Assembly (NCBI RefSeq): GCF_004353825.1
Contig: NZ_SMNA01000020.1
Span: 1 to 41,592 of the forward strand
DNA from: Occultella glacieicola
Lineage (GTDB): Bacteria; Actinomycetota; Actinomycetes; Actinomycetales; Beutenbergiaceae
Direction of reading: 5' to 3'
Length of the DNA stretch: 41,592 bases
The notes under the pieces were generated by a model that saw nothing but the letters and a program-made list of their open reading frames with translations, was not told the DNA's origin and searched no databases. Of the stretch, positions 579 through 31,521 are shown in pieces; positions within the stretch are counted from its first letter, which is position 1; every line of letters begins with the position of its first letter. The translations under genes and the position numbers were made by a program.

Positions 579-590
579 CGTCTGAGCCTA

Positions 591-764: not shown

Positions 765-809
765 CGCGTTGGGCGGGTTCGCTGCGCTGGGCTGAGGGGC
801 GGTGTAGGG

Positions 810-6086: not shown

Positions 6087-6152
6087 TTGGCTCCGGTGCG
6101 CGCTTCCGAGCAGGTAGCGTGCTTGACGACCCGCAAAGACGACGAGGATGCA

Positions 6153-18682: not shown

Positions 18683-20052
18683 AGTCCACCTGCCACAGCA
18701 GCTCCGGCACGTAGCCACGCGCGTCTTGTGGCGGGTTGGAGTGCGTCGAAGTGCAGGGCCGACTCGACCATCGCCCGGTCGTAGGGGATGGTCACGACCT
18801 CGCGCACCCACTCGCCAAAGCCCTTGGCGATCTGCCCGGCCGTGGGGTTGGTGTCCTTCTCCCGAGCTTGTGAGACAACGACGACGGCGCTTTGGGCGAG
18901 TTGGGCGGCTCGGCCACCGCGTTGGTACAACTCCTCGAGGAGGAGGGCACCGGCTTCGGCGTGCTCGTTCTGAGCGACGGTAGCGACCACCAACTGGTCT
19001 GCCTTGTTGATCATGCGCAGCCAATGCCCTGCCGACTCATCGTTGCCCGAGTCGACGAAGACGAGCCGGTAGTACCGGCCGGCGACGTCATGGACCGCGT
19101 CGACGTCCTCAGCGCTGATCCGTTGGTCTGCGGAGATCAGGTTCGGGTTCGAACGGAGCACGTCGTACTTGTCGGCCGGCTGGTGGTGCACGTAGTGGGA
19201 GATGTCGCCGGCCTTCGCACCTGGGGCGAGGAGCCTGCCCGCCTGAGGCAGCAGGTCCAGGATGGTGGCGGTGTGAGAGCCCTGGTCGGTGCGCCATCCC
19301 AACGTCCCGCGGGTCTCGTTGTTGTCCCACGCCAGCGTCGCGGCGCCGGAGTTGCGGGCGAACACGGCCGACAGCAGTGCTGTCGTGGGGGTCTTGTTCG
19401 CCCCGCCCTTGCCGTTCACCACGGCGATCGTGCGAACACCTGGCCAGTGCTGGGACACCGCTTCCACGTCGGCGCGGTAGGCACGCTCGGCCGCGCTCGG
19501 AGACGTGCGAACCCCGACGCGGGTCAGGAACCCGCGCAGGCCGGTGGCCGCGGGTGCTTCGACCTGCTCCGTGGTCAGGAATGAGGCGCGCAGCTCACGT
19601 CGCGACGGCGGCGCCACCGGCGCGCTCGGCGTCACGACAGCCGTCGCGGAGAAAGCGTGGGGGGCGGCAAAGCCAGCTGTCACCGGCGCCTCAGGTGCGA
19701 AGGGAGGGGGTTCCGCGGGAGGAGCGGGTGCAGCGGCCGCAGGAGGCCCGAGGGCGGGCTCGTGTGCTGGCGTGGTGTGCTGTTCGGTGATCGACCCGTC
19801 CGGATGGATCACGAGGTCAAAGCGCCCTTCGGGGTCGGTCACGGTCGCACGGACCGCGCGGCCGAGTGTCTCGCCGGCTCGGTAGGCGACGTAGGCCGAG
19901 ACTGCCTCCCGGGCGCCGGGAATGGTCTCGGCGGTGAGGACGTGTGAGACCCCGTTGAACACGACCTCAGCGGAGGCGTCCGGTCGCACCGTGGCAGTGA
20001 CCGCGGGAAACGCCGGTGGGAGTTCAGTCATCGGTTCCGCTTCTTTCTTCAT
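18679..20052 (-). CDS. ParA/MinD-like ATPase of the conjugation operon
   Basis: The product is 457 residues. The N-terminal ~70 residues form a small domain, a Pro/Ala-rich linker spans ~80-150, and the C-terminal ~280 residues are a ParA-type ATPase: variant Walker A VVNGKGGANKTPTT (normally KGGVGKTT), a LAWDNNETRGTLGW switch and FVDSGND Walker B-like strand. ATPases of this type position conjugation machinery or DNA at the membrane. It is distinct from the partition ParA at 29676. The start ATG 20052 shares one base with the upstream TGA; an internal ATG at 20031 with a purine-rich upstream tract is an alternative. Confidence 0.85.
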   Translation of the reverse strand: MKKEAEPMTELPPAFPAVTATVRPDASAEVVFNGVSHVLTAETIPGAREAVSAYVAYRAGETLGRAVRATVTDPEGRFDLVIHPDGSITEQHTTPAHEPALGPPAAAAPAPPAEPPPFAPEAPVTAGFAAPHAFSATAVVTPSAPVAPPSRRELRASFLTTEQVEAPAATGLRGFLTRVGVRTSPSAAERAYRADVEAVSQHWPGVRTIAVVNGKGGANKTPTTALLSAVFARNSGAATLAWDNNETRGTLGWRTDQGSHTATILDLLPQAGRLLAPGAKAGDISHYVHHQPADKYDVLRSNPNLISADQRISAEDVDAVHDVAGRYYRLVFVDSGNDESAGHWLRMINKADQLVVATVAQNEHAEAGALLLEELYQRGGRAAQLAQSAVVVVSQAREKDTNPTAGQIAKGFGEWVREVVTIPYDRAMVESALHFDALQPATRRAWLRAGAAVAGGL

Positions 20053-21227
20053 CAGGGCATCGCGATGCCGACGGTGGGCAGGTAGTTCATGGGGTCGACG
20101 TCGTCGCCGTCGATCCATATCTCGAAGTGCAGGTGCGCGCCGGTGGACTGGCCGTTGGAGCCGACGGCGGCGATGTGGTCCCCGGCGCTGACGGTCTGGC
20201 CGACCTGGGCGAAGACACCGTCGGGGTACATGTGCACGTACAGGCTCATGATCCGGCGCCCGGAGGCGTCGAGTCCGTGGTCGATCTGCACGTTGCACGG
20301 GGAGCGGCCTTCCCACCGGTCACAGGAGACGTGCACGACCACACCATCGGTGGCGGCGTAGATCGGCGTGCCGGCTGGGGCGGCGAAGTCGCTGCCCGCG
20401 TGTTCGGTGAAGGCCCCGGTCACGGGGTTGATGCGCATGCCGTACTCGGAGCTGTAGGAAGCGCCCGCGACGGGCTTGACCCAGCCTCCGGCCGAGACGG
20501 TGCCGGGGTACTGACCGCACTCGCCGCGAGTGACCTCGACGTCGACCAGGGCCGCGACCACGTCCAGGGCCGGCTGCCAGTCCTCGGTGTAGGCATCGGG
20601 AAATGCCGAGCGCTGGACCGTCTGCGCCGCAACCGCAGGAAGCATGTTCTCCCACCCCGGTACCGCCACCAGGGCGTCGAGGAACCGGCCCGCGGTGTAC
20701 GTGGGGTTGAGAAGATTCTGGATCTGCTCTGCCGGCTCACCATCGCCGCCCCACCCCTGAGATGGGCGACCCTGGAACAGGCCGACCGAGTCCCAGTCGC
20801 CGTCAGCCACGCCATCGTTGGGATAGTCCACCGACAGAATCGCGACCGAGCGCTGCGCGGCCCAATCCCCCGTCCACGAGGCCGGCGGGGTGTAAGTCCC
20901 AGCATTCGCCAGGTTCAGCAGGGTCGACTCCCGCATCGCCGTCATGACCGCGATCGCGGCCGCGCGCTCACTGAGGCCACGCGAGGCGGCCACGTCAATG
21001 ATGATCGCGGCGTTCTCGAGCTGGCGACCCGAGTAGCCGGCAACCTCACCAGGCAACGCCGAGGTGTCGACCAGTGTGATCTGTCCCGACAGATCGCACG
21101 AACCCGCCGCCGCCGCTGCATCAGATGAGTCCTCATCGAGGATCACCACGACCAGGAGCAGGCCGAAGATCAGTGCCAGAGGTGCGGCGATGATCGCGGC
21201 AAGGCCAACCCCGGCGCCGCGATTCAC
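20052..21227 (-). CDS. Secreted cell-wall hydrolase: lysozyme-like domain plus M23 peptidase
   Basis: This 391-residue bifunctional wall hydrolase should open peptidoglycan for the conjugation channel (VirB1-like role). It has an N-terminal membrane anchor (~5-29), a transglycosylase-like region (~55-215) with MRESTLLNLANAG, DSVGLFQGRPSQGWG, and VQRSAFPDAY, then a LytM/M23 zinc peptidase (~250-385) with HAGSDFAAPAGTPIYA (H-x3-D zinc ligands), SLYVHM and GAHLHFEIW. All metal ligands are present. The GTG at 21227 lies in a GTGA overlap with the lipoprotein gene. Anchoring plus two catalytic domains is the standard design in Gram-positive conjugation systems. Confidence 0.92.
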   Translation of the reverse strand: MNRGAGVGLAAIIAAPLALIFGLLLVVVILDEDSSDAAAAAGSCDLSGQITLVDTSALPGEVAGYSGRQLENAAIIIDVAASRGLSERAAAIAVMTAMRESTLLNLANAGTYTPPASWTGDWAAQRSVAILSVDYPNDGVADGDWDSVGLFQGRPSQGWGGDGEPAEQIQNLLNPTYTAGRFLDALVAVPGWENMLPAVAAQTVQRSAFPDAYTEDWQPALDVVAALVDVEVTRGECGQYPGTVSAGGWVKPVAGASYSSEYGMRINPVTGAFTEHAGSDFAAPAGTPIYAATDGVVVHVSCDRWEGRSPCNVQIDHGLDASGRRIMSLYVHMYPDGVFAQVGQTVSAGDHIAAVGSNGQSTGAHLHFEIWIDGDDVDPMNYLPTVGIAMP

Positions 21228-21781
21228 GAGATCTCCTCGATCCGTTCCACCAGCCACGGGCCATCCGCAGCGGTGCGACTCAGCAGGACCCGCAGCACCC
21301 CGGCGTCGGTCGGTACCTGCACCCACGCCAGGTAGGGCGTCTCCTCGCCTTCCAGGACCGGGTCGCCGGTCACCGCTGATGCGGTGAGATTCGCCGGGTC
21401 GACCGTTCCGTAGGTGCCGCGGGCCATGTCAGTCAGGAACGGGGAGAACCCCTCCCACCACGCCGCATAGTCCAGATCGGGTCGCGCGAACGCGGCCACC
21501 GCAGCTGACGCTGTTTGCCCGGCTGAGATCCTCGCGGCCTCATCCCACACCGGGGGTTCTGGATCCGTCGGGGCCGTCTCCAGATCCGCGTCATTGGCCC
21601 CCGGAACCGTCTGCGCTTGGGCTGAGGAAGGGCTCGAGCCAGCAGGCGTCTGCGAGGAAGGCTCTGGTGCTGGATCGCCCTGCCGGGCGCACCCAGCGAG
21701 AGCCACCGCTACCAGCAAAACGACAGCGGCAGTCCTCGCCCGCACTGACCGCCGGCCACTGCACCCGGCCACTCCGCCCAT
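21224..21781 (-). CDS. Lipoprotein, first gene of the conjugation operon
   Basis: The 185-residue product has an Arg-rich N-region, a hydrophobic stretch and a lipobox VALAGC (~25-30), so it should be lipid-anchored outside the membrane. After a Ser/Pro-rich spacer comes a ~115-residue domain (AFARPDLDYAAWWEGFSPFL, LAWVQVPTDAGVLRVLLSRT) that resembles the small extracytoplasmic domains of Gram-positive conjugation lipoproteins. The ATG at 21781 with a G-rich upstream tract is chosen; a longer reading to 22165 would translate the repeat element and is rejected. Transcription should start in the region shared with the HTH gene at 22271. Confidence 0.85.
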   Translation of the reverse strand: MGGVAGCSGRRSVRARTAAVVLLVAVALAGCARQGDPAPEPSSQTPAGSSPSSAQAQTVPGANDADLETAPTDPEPPVWDEAARISAGQTASAAVAAFARPDLDYAAWWEGFSPFLTDMARGTYGTVDPANLTASAVTGDPVLEGEETPYLAWVQVPTDAGVLRVLLSRTAADGPWLVERIEEIS

Positions 21782-21907: not shown

Positions 21908-22111
21908 GGTGATCGTTCTGCCCCCGTCACTTCCGATAGCCGGAGGCAGCCAGCGGGTCCGAGGGCCCTGTCCAGGGTCGAGCGGAGCTCGATCACGCAG
22001 TGACGCCGCAGGCGCCCTTGACTGGGCCCTCGGACCCGTTGAACCCTCAAAGGCCGGATGACGGGGGCAAAGCCCCCGGGACAACACAGCACCGGCCCAC
22101 AGGGCCGGTAC
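21908..22111 (-). repeat. Structured leader element, copy 1 (inverted), upstream of the conjugation operon
   Basis: These 204 bp are identical to 25403-25607 in reverse orientation except for two substitutions and one 1-bp indel. The order on the minus strand is: a GC hairpin (CCGGCCC-TGT-GGGCCGG), a GGGGGC-TTT-GCCCCC hairpin, a 13-bp long-range stem enclosing three small hairpins (core 21968-22022), a TCCG-GCTAT-CGGA hairpin, and CCCCCGTCA complementary to TGACGGGGG near the end. It has the same orientation relative to its downstream gene as the other three copies. Confidence 0.9.
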
Positions 22112-22154
22112 CGCCGTCTCCCCCGTCCCATCCATGTCGGCCACCCCCAGAACC

Positions 22155-22179
22155 CTGAAACACAATCAGTGTGTTTCAG
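22155..22179. promoter_or_regulatory. Operator palindrome between the conjugation operon and the HTH regulator
   Basis: CTGAAACAC (22155-22163) and GTGTTTCAG (22171-22179) form a perfect 9-bp dyad with a 7-bp spacer. A second half site, AGTGTGTTT, repeats at 22168 and 22204, 36 bp apart. The position between the two divergent units, next to a helix-turn-helix gene, suggests that the regulator controls itself and the conjugation operon. Confidence 0.7.
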
Positions 22180-22270
22180 ACAGTACCCCAACGAAGCACA
22201 TTAAGTGTGTTTAGATGAGGTGAGGCGGGATGCCAGGACTGTCAGAGGCCGACTCGGGCAAGATGGGCAC

Positions 22271-22600
22271 GTGCCTGCCTACGTCCAACCGCCGCTGCCG
22301 GAGACCGTGGAGATGGCCATTGAAGCGTTCGGGAACCGCGTGCGAGTGGCGATCCTTGCCCATCTCGCCAAGACCGACGCGGCAACCAGCCGAGAGATCG
22401 CCGATGCCCTCGACCTCTCCATCCGGCCGGCACAACGGCACGTGTGGTACCTCGAGGAGATCGGGCTGGTCGACGTCGACCAGCCGGGCGGTGACCGCCG
22501 CGGGACGCGGCCGCGGTACTCACTCAACCGGCGCGCGGCGACACGGCTCTACGAGGAGCTTGGGCAGTACATCGGGCTCAGCGAACCCCCACAGCGCTGA
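22271..22600 (+). CDS. Winged-helix (ArsR/MarR-like) transcriptional regulator
   Basis: The product is ~109 residues. MAIEAFGNRVRVAILAHLAK, SREIADALDLSIRPAQRHVWYLEEIGLVDVDQPGGDRRGTRPRYSLN is a textbook winged helix: helix-turn-helix, recognition helix (RPAQRHVWYLEE) and a wing with Gly-Asp-Arg-Arg. No metal-binding cysteines are present. It faces away from the conjugation operon across the 22155-22179 dyad, so it is the likely repressor of transfer. The start is uncertain: GTG 22271 is taken, GTG 22205 lies inside the putative operator, and ATG 22313 has GGAG upstream and would give a compact domain. Confidence 0.78.
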   Translation: MPAYVQPPLPETVEMAIEAFGNRVRVAILAHLAKTDAATSREIADALDLSIRPAQRHVWYLEEIGLVDVDQPGGDRRGTRPRYSLNRRAATRLYEELGQYIGLSEPPQR

Positions 22601-22685
22601 CGCGCGGATTAGAGCGCGCATAGGGCGACACGCCGCCAGTCTGCGCCTCCCGCGACGTAACAGTTTGATTCGCCAGGATGTACCC

Positions 22686-22928
22686 ATGGTGCGCAAACGA
22701 CATGGCGGCGGGCAGCCGCACAAGGGTGATCGTCGCCTCCTGGCCGCTCGAGTGCCGCGGTCCCAGGCGGATGAGGTCGAGAGACGAGCCGATGCGCTCG
22801 GACTCTCCATCAGCGAGTACATCGCGAGCGTCCTGGTCCAGCACGTGGCCACCACGGACTCCCCTGCCAACGCGCAGGGCGAACTACTGACGATCCGAGA
22901 GGAGATGCGCCTGAACCAAAGCGCATAA
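22686..22928 (+). CDS. Small ribbon-helix-helix-like protein
   Basis: The product is 80 residues: a basic N-terminus (MVRKRHGGGQPHKGDRR), a strand LLAARVP, then two helices SQADEVERRADALGLSISEYIASVLVQ, the pattern of CopG/Arc-type DNA-binding proteins, and a short acidic tail. AGGA precedes the ATG at 22686 by seven bases. No toxin gene is adjacent, so an antitoxin label is not justified. A copy-control or relaxosome role is possible because it stands between the regulator and a replication-protein candidate. A perfect terminator hairpin follows. Confidence 0.7.
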   Translation: MVRKRHGGGQPHKGDRRLLAARVPRSQADEVERRADALGLSISEYIASVLVQHVATTDSPANAQGELLTIREEMRLNQSA

Positions 22929-22945
22929 CTCCACACAAAAGCGAA

Positions 22946-22967
22946 GGCCGGCCCTTACGGGCCGGCC
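22946..22967 (+). terminator. Perfect 9-bp hairpin after the RHH gene
   Basis: GGCCGGCCC (22946-22954), loop TTAC, then GGGCCGGCC (22959-22967). There is no T-run, which is common for high-GC actinobacterial terminators. It separates the regulator/RHH unit from the rep candidate. Confidence 0.75.
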
Positions 22968-23053
22968 CGGTATCCGAAGCTATTCACCCTCTTTGCTTGG
23001 CGGCGGGGCGGTGAGTAGCTCAGACCGACACACCCTGAGGCGTGTCCTAACGC

Positions 23054-24334
23054 TTGGAGCACACCATACCTCCCGCGTCAGCATCCCCGCTAGTTTCCGG
23101 CGACCCCACGCGCCCGCGTGTCGCGGCGCCCTCGCGGCGCCGGCGAACAAGCCGACTCCGCGAGCGTGCACCGTTGGCGATCGCTACAGCCGTGCCCCAC
23201 GGCTCGCACAGACTGCGCCGCCTCAGCCAGTTTGTGGCCCTCGTCGACCAACGGGCCGACGAGGCCAACGTGCGCGTCGACCGCGCCCAGACGCTCCACC
23301 GAGTCGCCCTGGCGCTCCTCGAACGTGCCCGCGCCGACGGCACGTCAATGCCGACCTGGGCACACCTACAGGCTCGAGCCGGCCGCTCCCGAGCGACCGT
23401 AGCTCGAGCCCTCGCCACACTCGAGGCCTGGGGCCTACTAGGCGTCGTCTCCACCGGACGACGCGGCGTATGCGCACCCGGAGGATCCCTGAGCCGCCGC
23501 AAGGTCCCCGCCCGCGCAGTCCCAGCCATGAACGGACCCAACGACCCCCGCAACGAGGCCGCGGTCTACGTCCTCTGCGAGGTCTCACCCCTGCACCTGG
23601 TCACCGACGACGACCAGGTCAACCCGCACCCGCCCCACCTGCCTGTGAATACAAATGAGACCCCTCCCCCGGTAGGGGTTGGTCTTGCCCCCCGCACACA
23701 CGCGCGCGAAGACTCTCGAACCCAAACGGAGCCGCTCCGCGGCACCGACCCTCTGGCCGCTCCGCGGCCGCCACAGCGAGCCGCTTGGCGACACGTCCCA
23801 CTGTGGCCAAGCTCCGTAACGCCAAGCGGCAAGGACAACATGCTGCGCGCTGCCGCCGAGCTGCAACGCCGCCTCCCGGCGTTACGCACCATCACCGACC
23901 GCCACATCCGCTCCATCCTGCGCGAATTCTTCCTCGCCGGCTGGACCGTCGGAGACGTCATCCTCGCCATCGACCAACGCCCCAACAACGCACACTGGCA
24001 CCACGACGGCGCCACCGGAGTCGGCAACACCGGCGCCTGGCTCACCCACCGACTACGCCCCTGGCGCACCACCGACGGCGTCGTGCGAGTCTCCCCCAGC
24101 CAACGCGCCGCAGCCACACACGCGGAGAACCGCGCCAGGCAGGCAGCTCGGCGCCAAGCCGAAGCAAACGACCGGGCACTACGTCACGCAGACGGCCGGC
24201 ACGACCAGGCCCGAGACCGAGTCAAGGCCTGGTGGGACGCCTTCCGAACCGGACGCACCAACGCCCGCTCCCCCGAGGAATACCTCGACGCTGAACAACA
24301 AACCGAAGGCTGCGGCGATGCGCAACAGAACTGA
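23054..24334 (+). CDS. HTH protein, plasmid replication-protein candidate
   Basis: The product is up to 426 residues. Residues ~52-145 form a winged-helix domain (HRLRRLSQFVALVDQRADEA, PTWAHLQARAGRSRATVARA, LATLEAWGLLGVVSTGRRGV). A disordered Pro-rich linker follows, then a second helical domain (~265-345) with ITDRHIRSILREFFLAGWTV, GDVILAIDQRPNNAHWHHDG and a TGAWLTHRLRPW motif, and an Arg/Ala-rich tail. This two-domain pattern recurs on actinobacterial plasmids in proteins thought to act in replication, though I cannot prove it here. The TTG at 23054 is the earliest start; no good ribosome site is visible, and GTG 23192 is possible. An imperfect 8-bp dyad (23027-23046) lies just upstream. 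Confidence 0.7.
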   Translation: MEHTIPPASASPLVSGDPTRPRVAAPSRRRRTSRLRERAPLAIATAVPHGSHRLRRLSQFVALVDQRADEANVRVDRAQTLHRVALALLERARADGTSMPTWAHLQARAGRSRATVARALATLEAWGLLGVVSTGRRGVCAPGGSLSRRKVPARAVPAMNGPNDPRNEAAVYVLCEVSPLHLVTDDDQVNPHPPHLPVNTNETPPPVGVGLAPRTHAREDSRTQTEPLRGTDPLAAPRPPQRAAWRHVPLWPSSVTPSGKDNMLRAAAELQRRLPALRTITDRHIRSILREFFLAGWTVGDVILAIDQRPNNAHWHHDGATGVGNTGAWLTHRLRPWRTTDGVVRVSPSQRAAATHAENRARQAARRQAEANDRALRHADGRHDQARDRVKAWWDAFRTGRTNARSPEEYLDAEQQTEGCGDAQQN

Positions 24335-24338
24335 TACC

Positions 24339-24521
24339 TCACGCCCGCTCGACCGCGTTCGCCCACACCCACACCTCCTCGGTCCGGTCGTGCTCATCGA
24401 CCAGGCGCACCCGCACCGCCCGAGGCGTCCACGCCGTCGCCAGGCCATCAGTGCGCACCACACCCACGCGGGGCCGGCTCACCCAGACCTGCACCGCGAT
24501 CGGAGCCCGAGGCTCGGTCAT
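24339..24521 (-). CDS. Small conserved actinobacterial protein
   Basis: The product is 60 residues, IAVQVWVSRPRVGVVRTDGL, ATAWTPRAVRVRLVDEHDRTEEVWVWANAV. It looks like a small beta-barrel with regularly spaced strands and conserved Trp/Arg, a pattern I associate with short actinobacterial plasmid and chromosomal proteins without known function. The ATG at 24521 is preceded by GGGGGG; an in-frame ATG at 24605 would add 28 residues and has no ribosome site. It converges with the rep candidate, ending four bases from it. Confidence 0.6.
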   Translation of the reverse strand: MTEPRAPIAVQVWVSRPRVGVVRTDGLATAWTPRAVRVRLVDEHDRTEEVWVWANAVERA

Positions 24522-24729
24522 AGGCCCCCCAAGCGCCCCCATCGGAAGCGACTCAGCCGCAGCCCGCAGCGGCACCCGCTCCGGATGCCTACCCTCCCCA
24601 GTCATCCAACAAGTCTAGAACATCCGTTCGTGCGACCGGTCCGAATCAGCATTCTCCCCCCGCCGCTCAACCGGCAACTATCCACAGACCATCACCAGGG
24701 CATGGCGCCCCCTGGCGCCACGGACCAAG

Positions 24730-25224
24730 ATGGATCGCGTGGAAACAAACCACCGGCCACCCGCCGAACCTCAAGGACGAGGCAAGTCGTGCGCCGTGAT
24801 CGACTGCGACCGCAAACTCTTCGCCCGAGGCCTATGCCAAATGCACTGGCAACGCACCCGCCGCGGCCGCCCGCTCCTCGCCCCCGTCCAGATGCACCAC
24901 GCCGGCGAGATCCAGGAATGCACCATCTGCGGCGCCCAATGGTGCCGAATGCCCGCCAACACCTCCACCAGACGCACCTGCTCGAGCACCTGCCGCGCCC
25001 AGCTCATCTCCCAGAAAGCCCAGCAGCGAAGCGACACCAGCAGGGACACCGCGATCCTCGAGCTCGCCCGCCAAGGAATCCCCTACCCAGTCATCAGTGC
25101 GCAATACGACATCGGCGCCGCGCGAGTCCGACAGATCGCCACCGCCGCGGGGATCAGGCGATACCAAGAACGACAACAAGACGACGAACGCGGGGACCAC
25201 ACGGAACACCCGCAACACCAGTAA
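24730..25224 (+). CDS. Zinc-finger plus HTH DNA-binding protein
   Basis: The product is 164 residues. A first zinc site, CAVIDCDRKLFARGLCQMHW (~21-40), is of the C-x4-C...C-x2-H type found at the N-terminus of phage HNH endonucleases. A second, CTICGAQW...CSSTCR (~64-89), resembles a treble-clef site. A helix-turn-helix, LARQGIPYPVISAQYDIGAARVRQIATAAG, follows. No HNH catalytic motif is present, so I read it as a DNA-binding regulator. Its last ~14 codons lie inside a 9-bp repeat array (25181-25252), so the C-terminus DDERGDHTEHPQHQ is set partly by the array. Confidence 0.72.
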   Translation: MDRVETNHRPPAEPQGRGKSCAVIDCDRKLFARGLCQMHWQRTRRGRPLLAPVQMHHAGEIQECTICGAQWCRMPANTSTRRTCSSTCRAQLISQKAQQRSDTSRDTAILELARQGIPYPVISAQYDIGAARVRQIATAAGIRRYQERQQDDERGDHTEHPQHQ

Positions 25225-25252
25225 TGCACGCAACACACGCAACGAAGCGAAC
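25181..25252 (+). repeat. 9-bp array A, overlapping the end of the zinc-finger gene
   Basis: AAC (or AAT/ACC) recurs at exactly 9-bp steps, ending at 25189, 25198, 25207, 25216, 25225, 25234, 25243 and 25252. The best units are ACACGCAAC-like. No gene follows directly, but copy 2 of the structured element begins 150 bp downstream. Confidence 0.75.
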
Positions 25253-25402
25253 GGCAGAAGCGGAAGCATCATCAACGCGACGTCGCGGCTCCCGCGGCCA
25301 GGCGAACTACGCGCACAGCCGCCATAGGCGCCAGCGTCTGCGCACTCCGACCCAAGCCCCGTAGCCGGTCACCAAGGCGCGATCGAACCCGAAACCCGAG
25401 TA

Positions 25403-25607
25403 GTACCGGCCCTGTGGGCCGGTGCTGTGTTGTCCCGGGGGCTTTGCCCCCCGTCATCCGGCCTTTGAGGGTTCAACGGGTCCGAGGGCCCAGTCAAGGG
25501 CGCCTGCGGCGTCACTGCGTGATCGAGCTCCGCTCGACCCTGGACAGCACCCTCGGACCCGCTGGCTGCCTCCGGCTATCGGAAGTGACGGGGGCAGAAC
25601 GATCACC
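25403..25607 (+). repeat. Structured leader element, copy 2, upstream of the ParB-like gene
   Basis: Visible pairings: 25405-25412/25416-25423 (loop TGT); 25437-25442/25446-25451 (loop TTT); 25478-25488/25550-25560 (11 bp perfect), enclosing GTCAAGGG 25493-25500 with 25538-25545 and three successive hairpins at 25501-25511, 25513-25521 and 25524-25536; 25571-25574/25580-25583; and a competing long-range stem 25448-25456/25586-25594. Forty-eight bases separate the element from the ATG, filled by 9-bp units and the Shine-Dalgarno. Confidence 0.9.
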
Positions 25608-25618
25608 CCAAAGCAGTT

Positions 25619-25645
25619 ACGCGCAACGCACGCAACACACACAAC
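25619..25645 (+). repeat. 9-bp array B, directly upstream of the ParB-like ribosome site
   Basis: Three units end in AAC at 25627, 25636 and 25645 (ACGCGCAAC, GCACGCAAC, ACACACAAC). AGGAGG begins at the next base, so the array is the 5' untranslated segment immediately before the Shine-Dalgarno. Confidence 0.8.
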
Positions 25646-25655
25646 AGGAGGAACC

Positions 25656-26996
25656 ATGACCGACACCGGAACCCTCACCCACGTGGCCCCGGCCACGCTC
25701 ACCATCGAGACGAACGTCCGCAGCGACGCCGACCTCGACAAAGCATTCGTGGACTCGATCCGCCAGCACGGCGTGCTGACACCCATCATCGCGATCGCCC
25801 ACGAGGACGGAACCCTGCACGTGCGCGCAGGACAACGCCGGACCCTCGCAGCCATCGAGGCAGGCCTCGACACCATCCCCGCCTACATCGTCCCCGCAGG
25901 CGACGACGCAGACCGGCTCGTCGAGCAGATCGTCGAGAACGACCAACGACGCACGCTCAGCGACGCAGACCGCACCGCAGCCTGGGAACAACTCGCAGTA
26001 CTCGGACTCAGCGCCGCGCAGATCGCAAAGCGAACCGGACACGGCCGCAAAGACGTCCAAACCGGCCTCACCGTCGCCGAGAGCGCCGCAGCCAAGCACG
26101 CACTCGCCACCCATGACCTGACCCTCGCCCAGGCCGCCGTCCTAGCCGAGTTCGAGGACGACACCGACACCCTCGAGGCCCTGACCAACATCGCCATCAC
26201 CGAACCCGGGCAGTTCGACCACACAGCCCAACGCGCCCGCGACGACCGCGACGCGCAAGCGGCCGCGCAAGCCGAAACGGCCAGGCTCACCGAGGCAGGC
26301 GTCACCCTCCTCACCGAACGCCCCGCCTGGGACTCCGAGTTGAAGGACCTCAGCGGCTACCGCCCCGCAAAGAGCGAATACGGAGCAGCGATCGACCCGG
26401 CCGACTACTACGACAACCCCGACCTACGCGCCCACGTGCGAGCAGGATGGCGCGGCGAGGTCGAAGTCACCTACTACCTGCCCACGCCCAAGAAGCACGG
26501 CCTCATCGACCGGCACGCCACCTCCAACGCGAGCACCACCGGGCCGATGACCGAGGAACAGAAGGCCGAACGTCGCGAACTCATCGCCAACAACAAGGCC
26601 TGGAAATCCGCCGAAACCGTCCGGCGCGAGTGGCTCACCACGTTCGCCACCCGCAAGACCAGCCCCAAGGACGCAGCCCAGTTCGTGGCCAACAGCCTCG
26701 TCAGCAACAACTACGCGCTCGACAAGGCTGCAACCCAAGGCCACCGACTCGCCCGCCAGCTGCTCGGCCTGGCCGAGTCCACCGGATACGGCGACCGGAG
26801 CCTCAACGACACCATCGCCAAGGCCTCCCCCGCCAGAGCCGCGCACATCACCCTCGTCCTGGTGCTCGCCGCCATCGAGGACAACACCGGAGTACACACC
26901 TGGCGCAACGCCACCGACACCGACTACTTCGCCGCACTCACCCGCTGGGGCTACACCCTCAGCGACGTCGAGCAACTCACCCAACAACCCCACTGA
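25656..26996 (+). CDS. ParB/Srx-fold nuclease-domain protein, first gene of the leading-type block
   Basis: The product is 446 residues. A ParB N-terminal domain spans ~15-105 with the GxRR box RAGQRRTLAA (57-66), then HTH LSAAQIAKRTGHGRKDVQTG (~113-132). The C-terminal ~280 residues are unlike chromosomal ParB. ParB-fold proteins can use CTP or act as nucleases or adaptors. Stand-alone, ParA-less ParB-like genes are common in plasmid leading regions; the ParA here has its own RHH partner elsewhere. The ATG at 25656 has a perfect AGGAGG, preceded by array B and element copy 2. A 12-bp terminator hairpin follows. Confidence 0.85.
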   Translation: MTDTGTLTHVAPATLTIETNVRSDADLDKAFVDSIRQHGVLTPIIAIAHEDGTLHVRAGQRRTLAAIEAGLDTIPAYIVPAGDDADRLVEQIVENDQRRTLSDADRTAAWEQLAVLGLSAAQIAKRTGHGRKDVQTGLTVAESAAAKHALATHDLTLAQAAVLAEFEDDTDTLEALTNIAITEPGQFDHTAQRARDDRDAQAAAQAETARLTEAGVTLLTERPAWDSELKDLSGYRPAKSEYGAAIDPADYYDNPDLRAHVRAGWRGEVEVTYYLPTPKKHGLIDRHATSNASTTGPMTEEQKAERRELIANNKAWKSAETVRREWLTTFATRKTSPKDAAQFVANSLVSNNYALDKAATQGHRLARQLLGLAESTGYGDRSLNDTIAKASPARAAHITLVLVLAAIEDNTGVHTWRNATDTDYFAALTRWGYTLSDVEQLTQQPH

Positions 26997-27004
26997 CACG
27001 CGCA

Positions 27005-27031
27005 GGTGACCGGCCCGACGGGCCGGTCACC
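27005..27031 (+). terminator. Perfect 12-bp hairpin after the ParB-like gene
   Basis: GGTGACCGGCCC (27005-27016), loop GAC, GGGCCGGTCACC (27020-27031). It means that the ArdC-like gene downstream needs its own promoter, which is where element copy 3 lies. Confidence 0.85.
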
Positions 27032-27076
27032 CCGCCCCATCGGCGGCCGGCTGGCGCCGGCCCGGGCCAAGCGCGG

Positions 27077-27277
27077 AACCGGCCCGTGGGCCGGTGCTGT
27101 GCTGTGCCGGCGGCTACGCCCCCGTCATCCGGCCTCTGACCATCCAACGCGTCACCCGCACGGTCAAGGGCGCCTACGGCGTCACTGGCGTGATCGAGCT
27201 CCGCTCGACCCTGGACAGTGCGGCCGCCACGACGGCTGCCTCCGGCTATCGGAAGTGACGGGGGGAACGCGATAACC
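27077..27277 (+). repeat. Structured leader element, copy 3, upstream of the ArdC-like gene
   Basis: It has the same order of motifs as copy 2 (core 27163-27218) but is diverged between them. The long-range stem has a different sequence yet still pairs in part (CCGCAC with GTGCGG, CGTC with GACG). Loop changes (TAC for TGC, TGGC for TGC) leave the small stems intact, and the terminal CCCCCGTCA/TGACGGGGG pair is kept. This pattern suggests that the fold is selected. Confidence 0.85.
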
Positions 27278-27286
27278 CAACCAGTT

Positions 27287-27322
27287 ACGCGCAACACACG
27301 TAACGCCCGCAACGTACGCAAT
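27287..27322 (+). repeat. 9-bp array C, directly upstream of the ArdC-like ribosome site
   Basis: Four units end at 27295, 27304, 27313 and 27322 (ACGCGCAAC, ACACGTAAC, GCCCGCAAC, GTACGCAAT). CCGGAGGAACC and the ATG at 27334 follow at once. Confidence 0.8.
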
Positions 27323-27333
27323 CCGGAGGAACC

Positions 27334-28227
27334 ATGGCCCGCAAGATCAAGAACACCAAGAGCACCGAAGAACGCCAGGCCGAAGCCGCCGCACTACACG
27401 CCTTGATCGTGGATCAGGTCGAGATCCTGCGTGACTCCGAGGCATGGACCCGCTTCCTCGACTTCGCCCAGGCATTCCACCGCTACAGCATCAACAACTT
27501 GTTGTTGATCCTCGCTCAGAAGCCCCACGCAACCCACGTCGCCGGCTACGGGACGTGGCAGAAGCTCGGACGCCAGGTCCGCAAAGGAGAAGGCGGCCCC
27601 AACGCCATCCGGATCTACGGCGGCCGCGACATCGTGACCACCGAGGAAGACGCGAACACCGGCGAGCAGAAGGAGCAACGCCGAACACGGTTCTTCCCCG
27701 TGTCGGTGTTCGACATCTCCCAGACCGAGGCCAAGGACCCCGAGGCCGAGGAGCCCGGCACCATCGCCCGCCGCCTCACCGGGGACGACCCGCTAGGCAT
27801 CGCGGACGCGGTCACCGACTACCTCACCGACCGTGGGTGGACCGTCGAGCGCGAGCCGATCCCCGGCGAAACCAACGGCTACACCACCACCGACGGCACC
27901 CGCCGCGTCGTCATCGACGCAAACCTCTCCCCCGCACAGGCTGCCAAGACCGCCCTGCACGAAGCCGCGCACGTCATCATGCACGCCGACCAGGACCCGG
28001 CCGAGATCGCACAGCACCGAGGCATCAAAGAGACAGAAGCCGAGAGCGTCGCCTACATCGTGGCCGGGATCCACGAACTCGACACCAGCGCCTACAGCAT
28101 CGGCTACGTCGCCCGATGGAGCAACGCAGACGCCGAGACCATCAAGGAGACCGCCTCACGCGTGCTGCGCACCGCACACACCCTCGCCGAAGCCATCACC
28201 GAACCGGCCCAAACCGAAGCCGCCTGA
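27334..28227 (+). CDS. ArdC-like antirestriction protein with M78-type metallopeptidase domain
   Basis: ArdC-type proteins bind single-stranded DNA and protect incoming plasmids from restriction. The 297-residue product has the N-terminal ssDNA-binding domain (~20-130: FAQAFHRYSINNLLLILAQK, ATHVAGYGTWQKLGRQVRKG, FFPVSVFDISQT) and a C-terminal zinc metallopeptidase-like domain with TALHEAAHVIMH (HEAAH at 209-213) and a downstream ETEAESVAYIV supplying the third ligand Glu. All motifs are intact. The ATG at 27334 has GGAGG. The gene is preceded by a terminator, element copy 3 and array C, so it is probably its own transcription unit, consistent with early expression on entry. Confidence 0.88.
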   Translation: MARKIKNTKSTEERQAEAAALHALIVDQVEILRDSEAWTRFLDFAQAFHRYSINNLLLILAQKPHATHVAGYGTWQKLGRQVRKGEGGPNAIRIYGGRDIVTTEEDANTGEQKEQRRTRFFPVSVFDISQTEAKDPEAEEPGTIARRLTGDDPLGIADAVTDYLTDRGWTVEREPIPGETNGYTTTDGTRRVVIDANLSPAQAAKTALHEAAHVIMHADQDPAEIAQHRGIKETEAESVAYIVAGIHELDTSAYSIGYVARWSNADAETIKETASRVLRTAHTLAEAITEPAQTEAA

Positions 28228-28240
28228 CGATGTCGGCATT

Positions 28241-28276
28241 ACACACAACACCCGTAATGCGTGCAACACACACAAC
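28241..28276 (+). repeat. 9-bp array D, directly upstream of the 28287 ribosome site
   Basis: Four units end at 28249, 28258, 28267 and 28276 (ACACACAAC, ACCCGTAAT, GCGTGCAAC, ACACACAAC), followed immediately by AGGAGGAGCC and ATG. Confidence 0.8.
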
Positions 28277-28286
28277 AGGAGGAGCC

Positions 28287-28547
28287 ATGCTCACCACCGA
28301 CCAGATCATCGAGCGCATGCGAAGCAACCGGCTCGGCCGGGCCTACCTCGCCGAACATGGCGCCGGCCCCGGGGGAGAGCGCTTCGCCGCCTGGCTCTTC
28401 GAACTCGACGCGCGCCTGGCCCGCACCCTGCGCATCGCACGAGGGCACCAGCAGCTCGCCGACCGCGACTGGCTCGCCGAGTTCGAGGCCGGCACCGCTC
28501 CAGCCCAAGCAGCAACGAACGCCCTCAGCGAAGAGTTCGGCCCTTGA
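28287..28547 (+). CDS. Small conserved-looking protein of the leading-type block
   Basis: The product is 86 residues, predicted helical, slightly acidic. It begins LTTDQIIERMRSNRLGRAYL and contains a Trp-Leu-Phe-Glu-Leu-Asp core. I do not recognise a family. A perfect AGGAGG precedes the ATG at 28287, and the 9-bp array precedes that, which strongly supports the start over the longer overlapping frame. It lies 59 bp after the ArdC-like gene, probably co-transcribed. Small helical proteins in this position are often anti-SOS or anti-defence factors; there is no direct evidence here. Confidence 0.75.
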   Translation: MLTTDQIIERMRSNRLGRAYLAEHGAGPGGERFAAWLFELDARLARTLRIARGHQQLADRDWLAEFEAGTAPAQAATNALSEEFGP

Positions 28548-28614
28548 AGCGCCCCACCGGCGGTCGGGTGGCCTGAACAAGGACCAAGGCCCGGCGGCCT
28601 CGCCGCCGTGGCGG

Positions 28615-28808
28615 AACCGGCCCGGTGGGCCGGTGCTGTGTCTTCTCGGTGGCTACGCCCCCGCCATCCGGCCTTTGAGGATCCATCACGGACCGTCCGC
28701 GCGGTCAAGGGCGCCTGCGGCGTCACTACGTGATCGAGCTGCGCTCGACCCTGGACAGCACTACCGGCCGCAACGGCTGCCTCCGGCTATCGGAAGTAAC
28801 GGGGGAGG
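28615..28808 (+). repeat. Structured leader element, copy 4, upstream of the first redoxin gene
   Basis: The core (28704-28758) is nearly identical to the other copies, with loop changes only (TAC, TGC). The 5' GC hairpin and the 3' TCCG-GCTAT-CGGA hairpin are conserved, but the terminal long-range stem has two C-A mismatches and the 11-bp stem is poorly kept, so this copy may be the weakest. A small GC hairpin at 28592-28608 just upstream may terminate the preceding gene. Confidence 0.82.
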
Positions 28809-28850
28809 AGAAGCGGCCCACCCCAACCACACATCCCGTAGGAGGTCGCC

Positions 28851-29072
28851 ATGATCACCATCTACACCAGGCCGAACTGCCAAGCCTGCCGCCTCACACG
28901 CGGCCCGCTCGATCGCGAAGGAATCACTTACTCTGTCGTGAACCTCGACGAACACCCCGACGTCGCCGAGCAGCTGCGCGAAGCCGGACATCAAGCCCTA
29001 CCCGTCGTCGTCACCGAGACCCACACCTGGGCCGGCTTCCAACCCGACAAGATTCGGCAACTCACACGATAG
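28851..29072 (+). CDS. NrdH-like glutaredoxin, copy 1
   Basis: This is a small thiol-disulfide redoxin, 73 residues, with the active site RPNCQACRLT (Cys10, Cys13) near the N-terminus and the NrdH-type C-terminal signature THTWAGFQPDKIRQL. NrdH proteins reduce class Ib ribonucleotide reductase or other thiols; no reductase is encoded here. AGGAGG precedes the ATG at 28851. A second, diverged redoxin is encoded at 30861, and both belong to the same plus-strand block. Supplying deoxynucleotides during complementary-strand synthesis, or redox protection on entry, are possible roles (inference). Confidence 0.88.
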   Translation: MITIYTRPNCQACRLTRGPLDREGITYSVVNLDEHPDVAEQLREAGHQALPVVVTETHTWAGFQPDKIRQLTR

Positions 29073-29074
29073 AT

Positions 29075-29155
29075 ACGCGCAACGCACGCAATGCACTCGC
29101 CACGCGGGACACGCGCAACACAAGCATTGTGTGTAACCCAAGCAACGCACATAAT
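29075..29155 (+). repeat. 9-bp array E, upstream of ssb
   Basis: Nine units in unbroken 9-bp phase end at 29083, 29092, 29101, 29110, 29119, 29128, 29137, 29146 and 29155. They begin ACGCGCAAC, GCACGCAAT and include several degenerate members. This is the longest well-phased array. It ends 66 bp before the ssb ATG. Confidence 0.78.
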
Positions 29156-29221
29156 GAAGGTACGGGGGCAGGCCGTGACACCGCGGTCAGCTCGGAACGG
29201 ACACCGAGAAGGGGAGACACC

Positions 29222-29602
29222 ATGAGCACCATCACCATCGCCGGGAACCTCACCGAGGATCCCACCATCCGCTACACGCCGAGCGGGCGCGCGGTCGCCA
29301 ACCTACGCGTGCTAGAGAACACCGGACACTACGACCGCGACGCCGGCAAGTGGGTCGAAGACCCCGAGCCAAACGCATTCAACGTGACCGTCTGGGGCGA
29401 CCAGGCCGAGAACGTCGCGGAGTCCCTACACAAGGGCGACGCCGTCGTCGGATACGGCACGATCACCACCAACTCCTACGAGACCGCACAGGGCGAACGA
29501 CGCACCAGCCAGGTCATCACCGCAGATGTCATCGGAGCGAGCCTCAGGCGCGCCACAGCGACCGTGACCCGCAAGCCACGCAAGAGCGAGAACCAGGACT
29601 GA
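29222..29602 (+). CDS. ssb: Plasmid single-stranded DNA-binding protein
   Basis: SSB coats the incoming strand and limits SOS induction. The 126-residue product has a clear OB-fold (MSTITIAGNLTEDPTIRYTP, FNVTVWGDQAENVAESLHKG, VVGYGTITTNSYETAQGERR). It is shorter than chromosomal actinobacterial SSB and lacks the usual acidic C-terminal tip that recruits partner proteins, ending instead in RKPRKSENQD. This truncated form may bind DNA without hosting the host partners. AAGGGGAG precedes the ATG at 29222. Array E lies upstream and a 14-bp terminator follows. Confidence 0.88.
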   Translation: MSTITIAGNLTEDPTIRYTPSGRAVANLRVLENTGHYDRDAGKWVEDPEPNAFNVTVWGDQAENVAESLHKGDAVVGYGTITTNSYETAQGERRTSQVITADVIGASLRRATATVTRKPRKSENQD

Positions 29603-29607
29603 CACGT

Positions 29608-29646
29608 CCCCGGGGCGGAGGCGAACACACACCCTCCGCCCCGGGG
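29608..29646 (+). terminator. Perfect 14-bp hairpin between ssb and parA
   Basis: CCCCGGGGCGGAGG (29608-29621) pairs completely with 29633-29646 around an 11-nt loop. It separates the ssb unit from the partition operon, although parA begins only 29 bases later, so part of the transcript may read through. Confidence 0.82.
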
Positions 29647-29675
29647 CGCACCACCCACGAGACAGGAGCACCAAC

Positions 29676-30461
29676 ATGACGCATCCGCTCGTCGCGGCCA
29701 TCTGCAACCAGAAAGGGGGAGTCGGCAAGACCACCGAGACCTTCCACCTGGCTCGAGCGGCAGCCCGAGCGGGCCGCCGAACGCTCGTCATCGACGCTGA
29801 CCCCCAGGGCAACCTCACCACCGTCCTCAGCGCCGAACCGCTGCCCGAAGACAGCGTCGGCCTGGCCGACGTCCTCTCAGCACGGTCCCGCGAGGGCATC
29901 AGTGACGTCACGGTGCCCACCGTGTGGGAAGGCGTCGACCTGGTCCCGACCGTCGGCTCCACCCTCGAGCTCGTCCGAGACGAACTCGTCACCGCCGGCG
30001 CCGGACGCGAGGGGCGCTTACGCAGCGCAATCGAGACGGTGGGGGAGCGGTACGACCTGGTCCTCATCGACTGCCCGCCCAGCCTGGACCAACTGACGAT
30101 CAACGCACTCGCCGCCTCAGAGGTGGTCGTTGTCGTCAGCGAATCCAAACTGCTGTCCGCCGAAGGCATCGCGAAACTCACCCGCACCGTGGAGACCGTG
30201 CGCGAACATTACGCACCAACGCTGCGGATCGCCGGCGTCGTCATCAACAAGCACGAGGACCGCACCATCGGTGGGCGCGAATGGTTCGAACAGATCGCCA
30301 GCGCGCTGCCGATGATCGAGCCCGCGGTGCCCAAGCGGGCTGCGATCGCCGATTCGCTCGAGGCCGCCACGGGCCTGGACCAGTGGCCCTCACGGCGATC
30401 CGAAGAGCTCGTCGTCATCTACGACCAACACCTCGCAACGATCGAAGGAGTTAAGCCATGA
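29676..30461 (+). CDS. parA: Partition ATPase ParA
   Basis: ParA moves plasmid copies apart before division. The 261-residue product has a canonical deviant Walker A NQKGGVGKTTETFH (~11-24), Walker A' VIDADPQGNLTT (~38-49) and Walker B VLIDCPPSLDQL (~130-141). It is compact, without an N-terminal regulatory HTH, which is the type Ib pattern. ACAGGAG precedes the ATG at 29676. Its ATGA overlap with the RHH gene at 30458 makes that protein the centromere-binding partner. It is clearly different from the ParA-like conjugation ATPase at 18679-20052. Confidence 0.93.
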   Translation: MTHPLVAAICNQKGGVGKTTETFHLARAAARAGRRTLVIDADPQGNLTTVLSAEPLPEDSVGLADVLSARSREGISDVTVPTVWEGVDLVPTVGSTLELVRDELVTAGAGREGRLRSAIETVGERYDLVLIDCPPSLDQLTINALAASEVVVVVSESKLLSAEGIAKLTRTVETVREHYAPTLRIAGVVINKHEDRTIGGREWFEQIASALPMIEPAVPKRAAIADSLEAATGLDQWPSRRSEELVVIYDQHLATIEGVKP

Positions 30462-30829
30462 CCAGGCCAGCACGGCGGACCTCGAGCCTGGGCACCGCCC
30501 ACCCCGCGGCGCCGTCCCCGATCGAGTCCGTCCCGGCACCCGCAACCCCGCCAACGGAGGCGCCCACGAAGAAGAGCGAACCGGCGCCCGAGGGCGGTAA
30601 GAAGAAGCGGGCGAACACCGCCACGTTCTACGTCGACCCCGAGATCGTCGCCAGGGCGCGGGGAGCCTACCGCTACACCCAGGGCCCGGAGGGATACCGG
30701 TCCTTCAGTGACTTCATCGTCCGGGCACTGGAGGCCGAAACCGCCCGCGTCGAGGCCAAGTACAACGACGGCCGACCCTTCGACGCGCTGGAAGCCGGGA
30801 CCCTCTCCCCGGGACCGCAAGCCAACTAA
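30458..30829 (+). CDS. ParB-equivalent centromere-binding RHH protein
   Basis: The product is 123 residues: a disordered Pro-rich N-terminus (~1-45), a basic patch GGKKKRAN, then a ribbon-helix-helix-like segment TATFYVDPEIVARARGAYRY and FSDFIVRALEAETAR. Small RHH proteins of this size serve as the centromere-binding partner of type Ib ParA. The ATG at 30458 overlaps the parA stop (ATGA). I could not identify the parS repeats with confidence; the 9-bp arrays or the sequence around 29600-29676 are possible sites. Confidence 0.8.
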   Translation: MTRPARRTSSLGTAHPAAPSPIESVPAPATPPTEAPTKKSEPAPEGGKKKRANTATFYVDPEIVARARGAYRYTQGPEGYRSFSDFIVRALEAETARVEAKYNDGRPFDALEAGTLSPGPQAN

Positions 30830-30860
30830 AAAGCGAACGACCGGGGGGAGGGATACGTCA

Positions 30861-31154
30861 GTGTTCACCGCGATCGTGTACAGCACTCCCGAGTGCATGC
30901 CATGCAAGATGACCTACCGCGCGCTCGACAAGGCCGGCATCACCTACCGGATTGTCGACGTCGCCGAAGACGCCGCTGCGCGTGAATACGTCACCGACGA
31001 GCTCGGCTACAGCCAAGCCCCCGTGGTCGTCATCGATGACCAGGACCACTGGAGCGGATTCCGCCCAGATCAGATCAGCCGCATCGCACAAGCCAACAGG
31101 ACACCGGCGAGCGGAACGAGTGTCACACCCACCCGGAAGGATCAGCAGACATGA
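30861..31154 (+). CDS. NrdH-like glutaredoxin, copy 2
   Basis: The product is 97 residues: FTAIVYSTPECMPCKMTYRA with active-site Cys12-Met-Pro-Cys15, and the signature DHWSGFRPDQISRIAQ, aligned with the WAGFQPDKI of the 28851 protein. A ~20-residue hydrophilic tail is added. The GTG at 30861 follows GGGGGGAGGG and is chosen over longer overlapping frames. The stop overlaps the next ATG as ATGA, so it starts a four-gene coupled operon (30861-32453). Possession of two different redoxins on one plasmid is unusual and suggests distinct targets. Confidence 0.85.
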   Translation: MFTAIVYSTPECMPCKMTYRALDKAGITYRIVDVAEDAAAREYVTDELGYSQAPVVVIDDQDHWSGFRPDQISRIAQANRTPASGTSVTPTRKDQQT

Positions 31155-31519
31155 GCCCTGAGGACGACGTCACCCAACTCGCTGACCAGGCCTACGAGGC
31201 GATCCGTGGGCTCAACCACGCCACGATCACCACCGCCTACCCGGCGCCGACCGTCTACAACGTCCTCGGCAATCTCAGCCACGCCGGCGGGCACGGCCTA
31301 CAACAAGCCCTCACCCAGATCGCCGGAGGGCTCAGGCGCTCGCTCGAGGAGTACGACGTCCACCAGGACGACGGAAGCGATCCGGCCATCGCAGTGGAGG
31401 AGGCGGCACAGCACCTCCAACAGGCCTCCGAGCTGGCCCGCGAGGTCGGCCGACTCATCGACCAAGCCCAGGCGGCCATCAGCCGGCAGAGCTACCGCCC
31501 ACAGGACGGCGCGGAGTAG
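31151..31519 (+). CDS. Helical protein of the redoxin-ART operon, unknown
   Basis: The product is 122 residues, acidic, nearly all helical: YNVLGNLSHAGGHGLQQALT, then LRRSLEEYDVHQDDG and a long helix EEAAQHLQQASELAREVGRL. The Leu-Gly-x-Leu and Gln-Ala-Leu pattern looks like a conserved actinobacterial family of plasmids and conjugative elements, function unknown. It is coupled by ATGA to the redoxin gene and lies two bases before the ART-like gene. It has no cysteines, so it is not an obvious redoxin substrate. A partner or inhibitor of the ART-like protein is possible from gene order only. Confidence 0.75.
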   Translation: MSPEDDVTQLADQAYEAIRGLNHATITTAYPAPTVYNVLGNLSHAGGHGLQQALTQIAGGLRRSLEEYDVHQDDGSDPAIAVEEAAQHLQQASELAREVGRLIDQAQAAISRQSYRPQDGAE

Positions 31520-31521
31520 TC

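Follow-up and report, generated by a model that had tools for sequence, protein, structure and literature searches.

What does a structured DNA element of about 200 bp do when it occurs several times on one plasmid in front of genes, and does it fold as RNA or as one of its two DNA strands? The question is raised by contig NZ_SMNA01000020.1 of the actinomycete Occultella glacieicola (assembly GCF_004353825.1), which was analysed over its full length of 41,592 nucleotides (the window). Identical ends of 119 bp indicate that this 41.6-kb contig is a circular plasmid of approximately 41,473 bp. An initial reading of the letters without database searches (the sequence-only reading) had reported four copies of the element upstream of early-expression genes and had left two explanations side by side, a structured leader RNA or a DNA element that folds when single-stranded. 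We conclude that the element most likely marks a start for the copying or reading of single-stranded plasmid DNA. More specifically, we cautiously favour a strand-specific single-strand initiation site of the type known as single-strand origin (sso) or single-strand initiation site (ssi), in which the strand carrying GNA loops folds once it is single-stranded.

A conserved fold with strong covariation

All four copies were recovered where the sequence-only reading had placed them (Table 1), and a DNA search of the whole 5.34-Mb genome found only these four, all on the 41.6-kb contig. Copies 1 and 2 share 96-100% identity over approximately 204 bp and lie inverted, 3.3 kb apart, while identity to copy 2 is 82% for copy 3 and 84% for copy 4. 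A fifth, two-hairpin copy, which had been missed, was detected by a covariance model (match 209-280, 28.2 bits, E 1.2e-4). Its orientation is uncertain: the model weakly prefers the plus strand (28.2 vs 22.5 bits), whereas a GGA loop on the plus strand, the CTATCGGG motif on the minus strand and a corresponding position in Glutamicibacter speak for minus.

From the outside inwards, the element comprises an outer stem A (CCCCCGTCA/TGACGGGGG), a pair of short conserved loops (by eye AGTGT on the left and GCTATCG on the right), a variable inner stem B, a stem CAAGGG/CCCTTG and three contiguous mini-hairpins, which are closed in the core by GTCAAGGG/CCCTGGAC. Stem B is free in sequence, and both A and B vary among species yet pair, as illustrated by the diverged stem CGTCGTCCTGATAG/CTATCAGGACGACG of Kocuria. 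The three successive hairpins of the sequence-only reading are present together with enclosing stems. As that reading had also noticed, changes between the four cores fall in loops (the middle loop base, plus one inserted loop base in copy 3), and the inner stem of copy 3 differs in sequence but is still partly paired in the predicted fold. Its two long-range stems exist as well, but they are nested in the predicted folds instead of competing; by eye, the outer stem would face competition from a local GGGGGC...GCCCCC hairpin.

The proposed check by covariance model and homologue search was run. Among 98 distinct sequences, 91.9% of the cells were paired and 18 of the 26 pairs showed changes on both sides, with a covariation score of 0.249 compared to 0.077 for shuffled and at most 0.068 for slid alignments; this alignment was fitted to the covariance model and is hence biased towards it, and two of its rows (L266 and L150) repeat sites already included, taken from the opposite strand. 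An initial alignment, built from 20 sequences including four of the window, agrees, with 10 of 26 pairs changed on both sides. The structure of the element is conserved with strong covariation.

One strand is marked for folding

The loops of the mini-hairpins distinguish the two strands. In 120 distinct elements that could be parsed into three hairpins (nine ambiguous ones were dropped), 313 of 360 loops on one strand were of the type TNC and only one was GNA. The central base of the TNC loops was G in 107, T in 104, A in 69 and C in 33 cases; all three loops were TNC in 75 elements, and a single element was mixed. The complementary strand hence carries C(GNA)G loops. Nine further loops are CAAG, equivalent to CTTG on the opposite strand.

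Mismatches in the stems point to the same strand when counts are restricted to clean outer helices; loose outer alignments gave an uninformative 403 vs 399. A.C mismatches on the TNC strand, which are G.T wobbles on the GNA strand, outnumbered G.T on the TNC strand by 29:11 (span of at least 10), 37:16 (span 8) and 45:21 (span 6), whereas control pairings between arms of different elements gave 1.0:1.2, 5.8:6.4 and 11.4:12.4, respectively. Counted by sequence cluster at span 8, the bias was 20 vs 4 in favour of the GNA strand (p = 0.0015), and within the mini-hairpins it was 9 vs 3.

Predicted DNA energies favoured the GNA strand in all five window copies, though by only 0.5-6.8 kcal/mol. The folding z-scores for copies 1 to 5 were -8.20, -6.35, -4.80, -1.61 and -5.09 on the GNA strand and -7.27, -7.25, -3.34, -0.92 and -3.60 on the other one. 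For copy 4, the energy by itself is weak evidence (on the GNA strand, 13 of 200 shuffles folded as well), and in the prediction for copy 5 the long stem is retained whereas the mini-hairpins are not both formed. Taken together, loop type, wobble bias and predicted energies indicate that the GNA strand is the strand that folds.

At copies 1-4, and at copy 5 if read by its loops, this strand serves as the template for the downstream gene, which makes a sense leader RNA unlikely. Hence, the either/or of the sequence-only reading shifts: the single-stranded DNA element gains from the covariation, the GNA and CTTG loops on one strand, the G.T wobbles and the polarity to RepSA described below, and the structured leader RNA loses.

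Fixed polarity to rolling-circle initiators

RepSA is the pSAM2-type rolling-circle initiator. The first clue to its connection with the element came from three elements found beside RepSA, between repSA and xis/int. RepSA occurred in 66 of 88 element-bearing genomes compared to 146 of the 394 genomes of the sample. In these 66 genomes plus five known ones, all elements and RepSA genes were searched, which yielded 206 elements, 91 of them within 20 kb of a RepSA. No fewer than 89 of these 91 run opposite to repSA, i.e. their GNA strand is the repSA coding strand, and within 5 kb this holds for 43 of 43. Distances to repSA range between 0.1 and 17 kb, with 54 of the 89 on its 5' side and 35 on its 3' side. 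The two that deviate are G1060:C303 and one of two inverted partners in G1074:C51. With relatedness ignored, the sign test yielded 1.7e-24.

Crude gene calls at 60 of the 89 loci placed at least one neighbouring gene on the strand other than rep in 29 (one neighbour was missing at two loci), so the polarity of the element does not simply follow the adjacent genes. The upstream gene, seen in the direction of rep, lies opposite to rep at 13 of the 60, and the element still shows its usual polarity there.

Small plasmids behave alike. The same polarity to the rep gene was found on the Rep_1 plasmid pPA43082 and on a Curtobacterium plasmid of 1,579 bp, where the Rep_trans match is weak (22.2 bits vs a Pfam cut-off of 29.6). 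A Rothia plasmid of 3,459 bp agrees as well; it carries a Replicase (PF03090) and is presumably a theta replicon. The Curtobacterium plasmid (L253) consists of a CopG-like gene, the unannotated Rep_trans-like gene and, immediately 3' of the latter, a single element.

Such a fixed polarity is what would be expected of an sso or ssi. As a general rule of rolling-circle replication, the displaced strand is the coding strand of the initiator gene, and the strand displaced by RepSA would then be the GNA strand.

Gene context on conjugative plasmids

In the window, all four copies named by the sequence-only reading indeed share their orientation with the downstream gene (4/4, or 5/5 if copy 5 is read as minus). 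Taken alone, this uniformity is weak evidence for a link to genes. Across the family, the downstream gene was co-directional in 58 and opposite in 69 of 127 placed elements, counted from 153 instances with a simple gene caller after 26 at locus edges had been dropped, related copies included. A gene-linked leader or promoter as a rule of the family is ruled out by this random orientation. The placement upstream of early-expression genes hence holds for the window and a few other cases, such as Kocuria, where copies precede ArdC, and Nocardia farcinica, where a gene run after the element leads to a ParB_N gene 1.5 kb further on, but not for the family, and for a gene-linked regulator the counts come close to the random position relative to genes that the sequence-only reading had named as speaking against it. 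In Glutamicibacter, Gulosibacter and Miniimonas, copies are located between convergent genes.

Table 1. Element copies and recognised genes around them (positions in the window).
Feature	Position	Strand	Remarks
Copy 1	21908-22111 (core 21970-22022)	-	GNA-loop fold on the plus strand; upstream of the minus-strand transfer operon, first recognised gene M23 peptidase (20052-21326)
Copy 2	25403-25607 (core 25493-25545)	+	Precedes ParB_N gene; GNA-loop fold on the minus strand
Copy 3	27077-27277 (core 27163-27216)	+	Precedes ArdC-like gene; TGGC tetraloop in hairpin 2
Copy 4	28615-28808 (core 28704-28756)	+	Precedes NrdH-like gene, then SSB
Copy 5	189-300 (core 227-262)	- (by reading)	Divergent two-hairpin form near MobC and relaxase
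MobC-like mobilisation protein	564-1208	+	PF05713, E 1.8e-6
Relaxase	1205-2911	+	PF03432, E 7.6e-13
ParB_N-domain protein	25656-26996	+	Downstream of copy 2; PF02195 in open reading frame 25422-26996; ATG at 25656
ArdC-like anti-restriction protein	27334-28227	+	Downstream of copy 3; PF08401, PF06114
NrdH-like gene	28851-29072		Downstream of copy 4; named from the sequence-only reading
Single-stranded DNA-binding protein (SSB)	29222-29602	+	Second gene past copy 4; PF00436 within open reading frame 28730-29602; start codon ATG

The transferred strand of the plasmid is probably the minus strand, judging from the relaxase and the gene content, since the SSB, NrdH, ArdC and ParB-like genes of the window are all on the plus strand. 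Copies 2-4 would then have their GNA fold on the transferred strand. Between approximately 22.6 and 32 kb, the plus strand is strongly A/C-rich and codes for the recognised genes there (in 1-kb windows over 22600-32000, AT skew reaches +0.43 and GC skew falls to -0.24), which would fit a long-term exposure of the minus strand, or may have other causes. T-poor, imperfect CGCAAC/CACAAC repeats were seen in the same region at 25619-25656, 27287-27330, 28250-28289 and 29075-29160; three of them immediately precede ribosome-binding sites, whether or not an element lies upstream.

Elsewhere, the element lies 0.2-1.5 kb upstream of mobilisation (mob) genes and points away from them in 11 of the 12 loci on plasmids or contigs, some being close relatives; the taxa include Glutamicibacter, Miniimonas, Xylanimonas, Gulosibacter, Cutibacterium, Micromonospora and Rhodococcus, and Amnibacterium is the single exception. 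In Miniimonas, Xylanimonas and Gulosibacter, genes for ParA, SSB, NrdH/glutaredoxin and ArdC point toward the mob region. This arrangement is described, in the part of the source consulted, for leading regions read from the transferred strand, where SSB and anti-restriction genes are typical (PMC11541004). If the same applies here, the GNA fold of the mob-proximal element would lie on the strand retained by the donor, where one guess is a role in priming the replacement strand. The idea that GNA strand and transferred strand always coincide was rejected, as the mobC-proximal copies and copies 1 and 5 of the window do not fit. In addition, at 6087-10438 of the window a gene for an N6/N4 DNA methylase precedes an AAA-domain gene of 774 aa, and a relative in Glutamicibacter nicotianae has a methyltransferase and DEAD-helicase pair near its mob region.

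A putative single-strand start and the points against it

As a single-strand initiation site, the element may work as follows. Once single-stranded, the GNA strand would fold into a cloverleaf-like structure made of the outer stem, the variable inner stem, the CAAGGG/CCCTTG stem and the three C(GNA)G mini-hairpins. Recognition of this fold by a host factor, either RNA polymerase or a primase, would let RNA synthesis begin and proceed outward, in the direction of the complementary TNC strand. In actinomycete integrative and conjugative elements (AICEs) with RepSA and in small Rep plasmids, which are rolling-circle replicons, this start would prime the displaced strand for second-strand synthesis. 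The element has multiplied on the conjugative plasmid studied here, where copies 2-4 have their GNA fold on the putative transferred strand directly upstream of establishment genes. At the ParB-like, ArdC and NrdH/SSB genes the same start may both prime the complementary strand and give early mRNA, as Frpo of the F plasmid does.

Several observations weigh against this reading. The other strand folds well too, and copy 2 even has its better z-score there. By eye, no convincing -35/-10 pair was seen in the fold; TTGA is nearly invariant on the GNA strand, and no constant -10 accompanies it. The RepSA-linked loci are related, hence the sign test overstates their independence, and AICE genes are often co-directional, so that the polarity to RepSA is partly a polarity to the whole AICE. 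On conjugative plasmids, the GNA strand next to mobC or the relaxase is the relaxase-coding strand and not the putative transferred strand (11 of 12 loci), and copies 1 and 5 of the window have a polarity opposite to that of copies 2-4. Among the chromosomal copies, many are scattered repeats near which no initiator was recognised. An element directly beside every RepSA was rejected, as none was present within 1.5 kb on either side at 30 RepSA loci (the best match of each of 30 genomes), so many AICEs have no element or carry it farther off. Furthermore, pIJ101 does not qualify as a family member: its sso (sti) is known experimentally, according to the part of the source consulted (PMC4170104), and the best match in a search of the whole plasmid, at 14.8 bits and E 0.48, was not significant.

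Alternative explanations

The strongest competitor is a promoter, single-stranded or extruded by supercoiling, whose C(GNA)G hairpins on the template strand recruit RNA polymerase for the downstream gene, with DNA priming being secondary or absent. The coincidence of GNA strand and template strand in the window and the Kocuria copies in front of ArdC are what it would predict. It also has precedents in the accessible parts of two papers: template-strand hairpins of phage N4 need a C:G closing pair and the loop bases G and A (PMC4496689), and the F leading region has two Frpo copies with 92% identity, approximately 5 kb apart (PMC9849209). We nevertheless consider it unlikely as the principal role, because such a promoter should not be oriented at random to its genes (58 vs 69) or lie between convergent ones, as in the three genera named above.

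Less probable still is a self-spreading DNA repeat, like a repetitive extragenic palindrome (REP) or a miniature inverted-repeat transposable element (MITE), with an enzyme that recognises folded single-stranded DNA and with the plasmid positions as by-products of transposition. Actinokineospora bangkokensis has nine loci, genome G737 has 26 matches and G720 nine, often in inverted pairs, and inverted copies flank a DUF222 gene in Actinomadura; these dispersed chromosomal copies and inverted pairs show that the unit also multiplies. On the other hand, the stems change freely with compensation, unlike ends recognised by a transposase, the polarity to RepSA is 89 of 91, plasmid positions such as that beside mobC recur, and inspection by eye of the window and Actinomadura copies revealed no target-site duplication. 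The Actinomadura pairs (L170:76-2445, L202:5192-7597 and L151:2423-4980) are 2.3-2.5 kb apart around the DUF222 gene, like the ends of a mobile unit, and at several chromosomal sites of G720 inverted pairs lie approximately 600 bp apart with no called gene in between (L085:4353-5127, L086:5266-6000).

A structured RNA, either a sense leader of the plasmid genes or a GNA-strand RNA within AICE operons, is the least probable: GNA and CUUG loops are stable in RNA too, the sense-strand RNA is predicted to fold stably (z -5.06), and with the upstream gene on the rep strand at 47 of 60 RepSA loci read-through would give a GNA-strand RNA, but in the window the TNC strand is the sense one, contrary to the loop and wobble evidence, the polarity persists at the 13 loci whose upstream gene is opposite to rep, and the hairpins rarely contain pairs of the wobble type (12 of 605). 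A leader RNA or riboswitch was rejected, given that no Rfam family reached its gathering score, the strand is wrong and homologues are not co-oriented with genes.

Distribution

The covariance model matched 39 of 396 genomes of the order and 26 of 396 of the phylum (both E ≤ 0.01) as well as 88 of 394 of the class (E ≤ 0.001); these samples overlap and each includes the genome of the plasmid itself. A DNA pattern scan of 84,980 species genomes returned at least 118 stretches, and among the 80 listed 78 belong to Actinomycetota and two to metagenome-assembled genomes labelled Caulobacter or Caulobacterales. Searches of plasmids gave overlapping sets of 4, 17, 58 and 30 records, with homologues also on alphaproteobacterial plasmids of Acidiphilium, Azospirillum and Skermanella; the Acidiphilium element was confirmed at 50.9 bits (L257:11985-12069). 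A phage origin was rejected, since no phage record has the element and no viral contig matches one strict pattern.

The sequence-only reading knew of no matching class of non-coding RNA, and this was borne out: no Rfam family reached its gathering score, and the four weaker matches (E 0.21-3.9) are to unrelated families. Titles and the openings of abstracts in the literature on AICEs, sso and repeats contained no description of the element. The portions of the AICE literature consulted describe the RepSA nick site and no single-strand origin.

Relation to known single-strand elements

The closest functional parallel is the sso, such as sso1 of ICEBs1 and sti of pIJ101: single-stranded DNA folds into several stem-loops, the polarity to the rolling-circle initiator is fixed, and the sites are located on rolling-circle integrative and conjugative elements and plasmids. 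For ICEBs1 sso1, structure was found to matter more than sequence, as stated in the excerpt seen (PMC4595007). Unlike these, the present element has three C(GNA)G hairpins inside a closed cloverleaf and only a putative sso-type activity, it has no significant match in pIJ101, and it is multiplied on this plasmid and dispersed in chromosomes.

Frpo and ssi sites of F and ColIb-P9, with their homologues, make up the single-strand promoter literature seen in part (PMC11541004, PMC9849209), where Frpo on F is a single-strand promoter that gives early transcripts (PMC9849209). The window resembles them in its several similar copies and, for copies 2-4, in a fold on the putative transferred strand upstream of SSB and anti-restriction genes; it differs in the opposite polarity of copies 1 and 5, in the lack of a clear -35/-10 and in the random gene orientation across the family. 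The early promoters of the N4 virion RNA polymerase have in common with the element that a loop of the C(GNA)G type is specific to the template strand, and their closing pair together with the loop G and A let the hairpin of that strand form (PMC4496689, seen in part), but N4 has one hairpin and its own polymerase in place of three hairpins in a cloverleaf.

Finally, the hairpin loops of Streptomyces telomeres are GNA (mostly GCA or GGA) and CTTG in the portion of the work consulted (PMC7205883), and both types are present in the element. In contrast to telomeres, the elements are internal, on circular plasmids and chromosomes, and imply no terminal protein. An identity with Streptomyces telomeres was rejected, because the window copies are internal and the identical 119-bp contig ends stand for a circle.

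Outlook

A wider proposal is attractive and, in our judgement, still doubtful: the element may represent an undescribed family of internal, telomere-like cloverleaves of single-stranded DNA that the host machinery of Actinomycetota reads as a single-strand start, serving as an origin in rolling-circle integrative and conjugative elements and small plasmids, as promoter plus origin in conjugative leading regions, and using the GNA/CTTG loop code of linear-replicon telomeres. The family does provide a searchable covariance model (R1) and a sharp, orientation-dependent prediction. It would supply Actinomycetota with both single-strand promoters and a single-strand origin, and it would tie the second-strand synthesis of plasmids to the loop chemistry of Streptomyces telomeres and N4 promoters.

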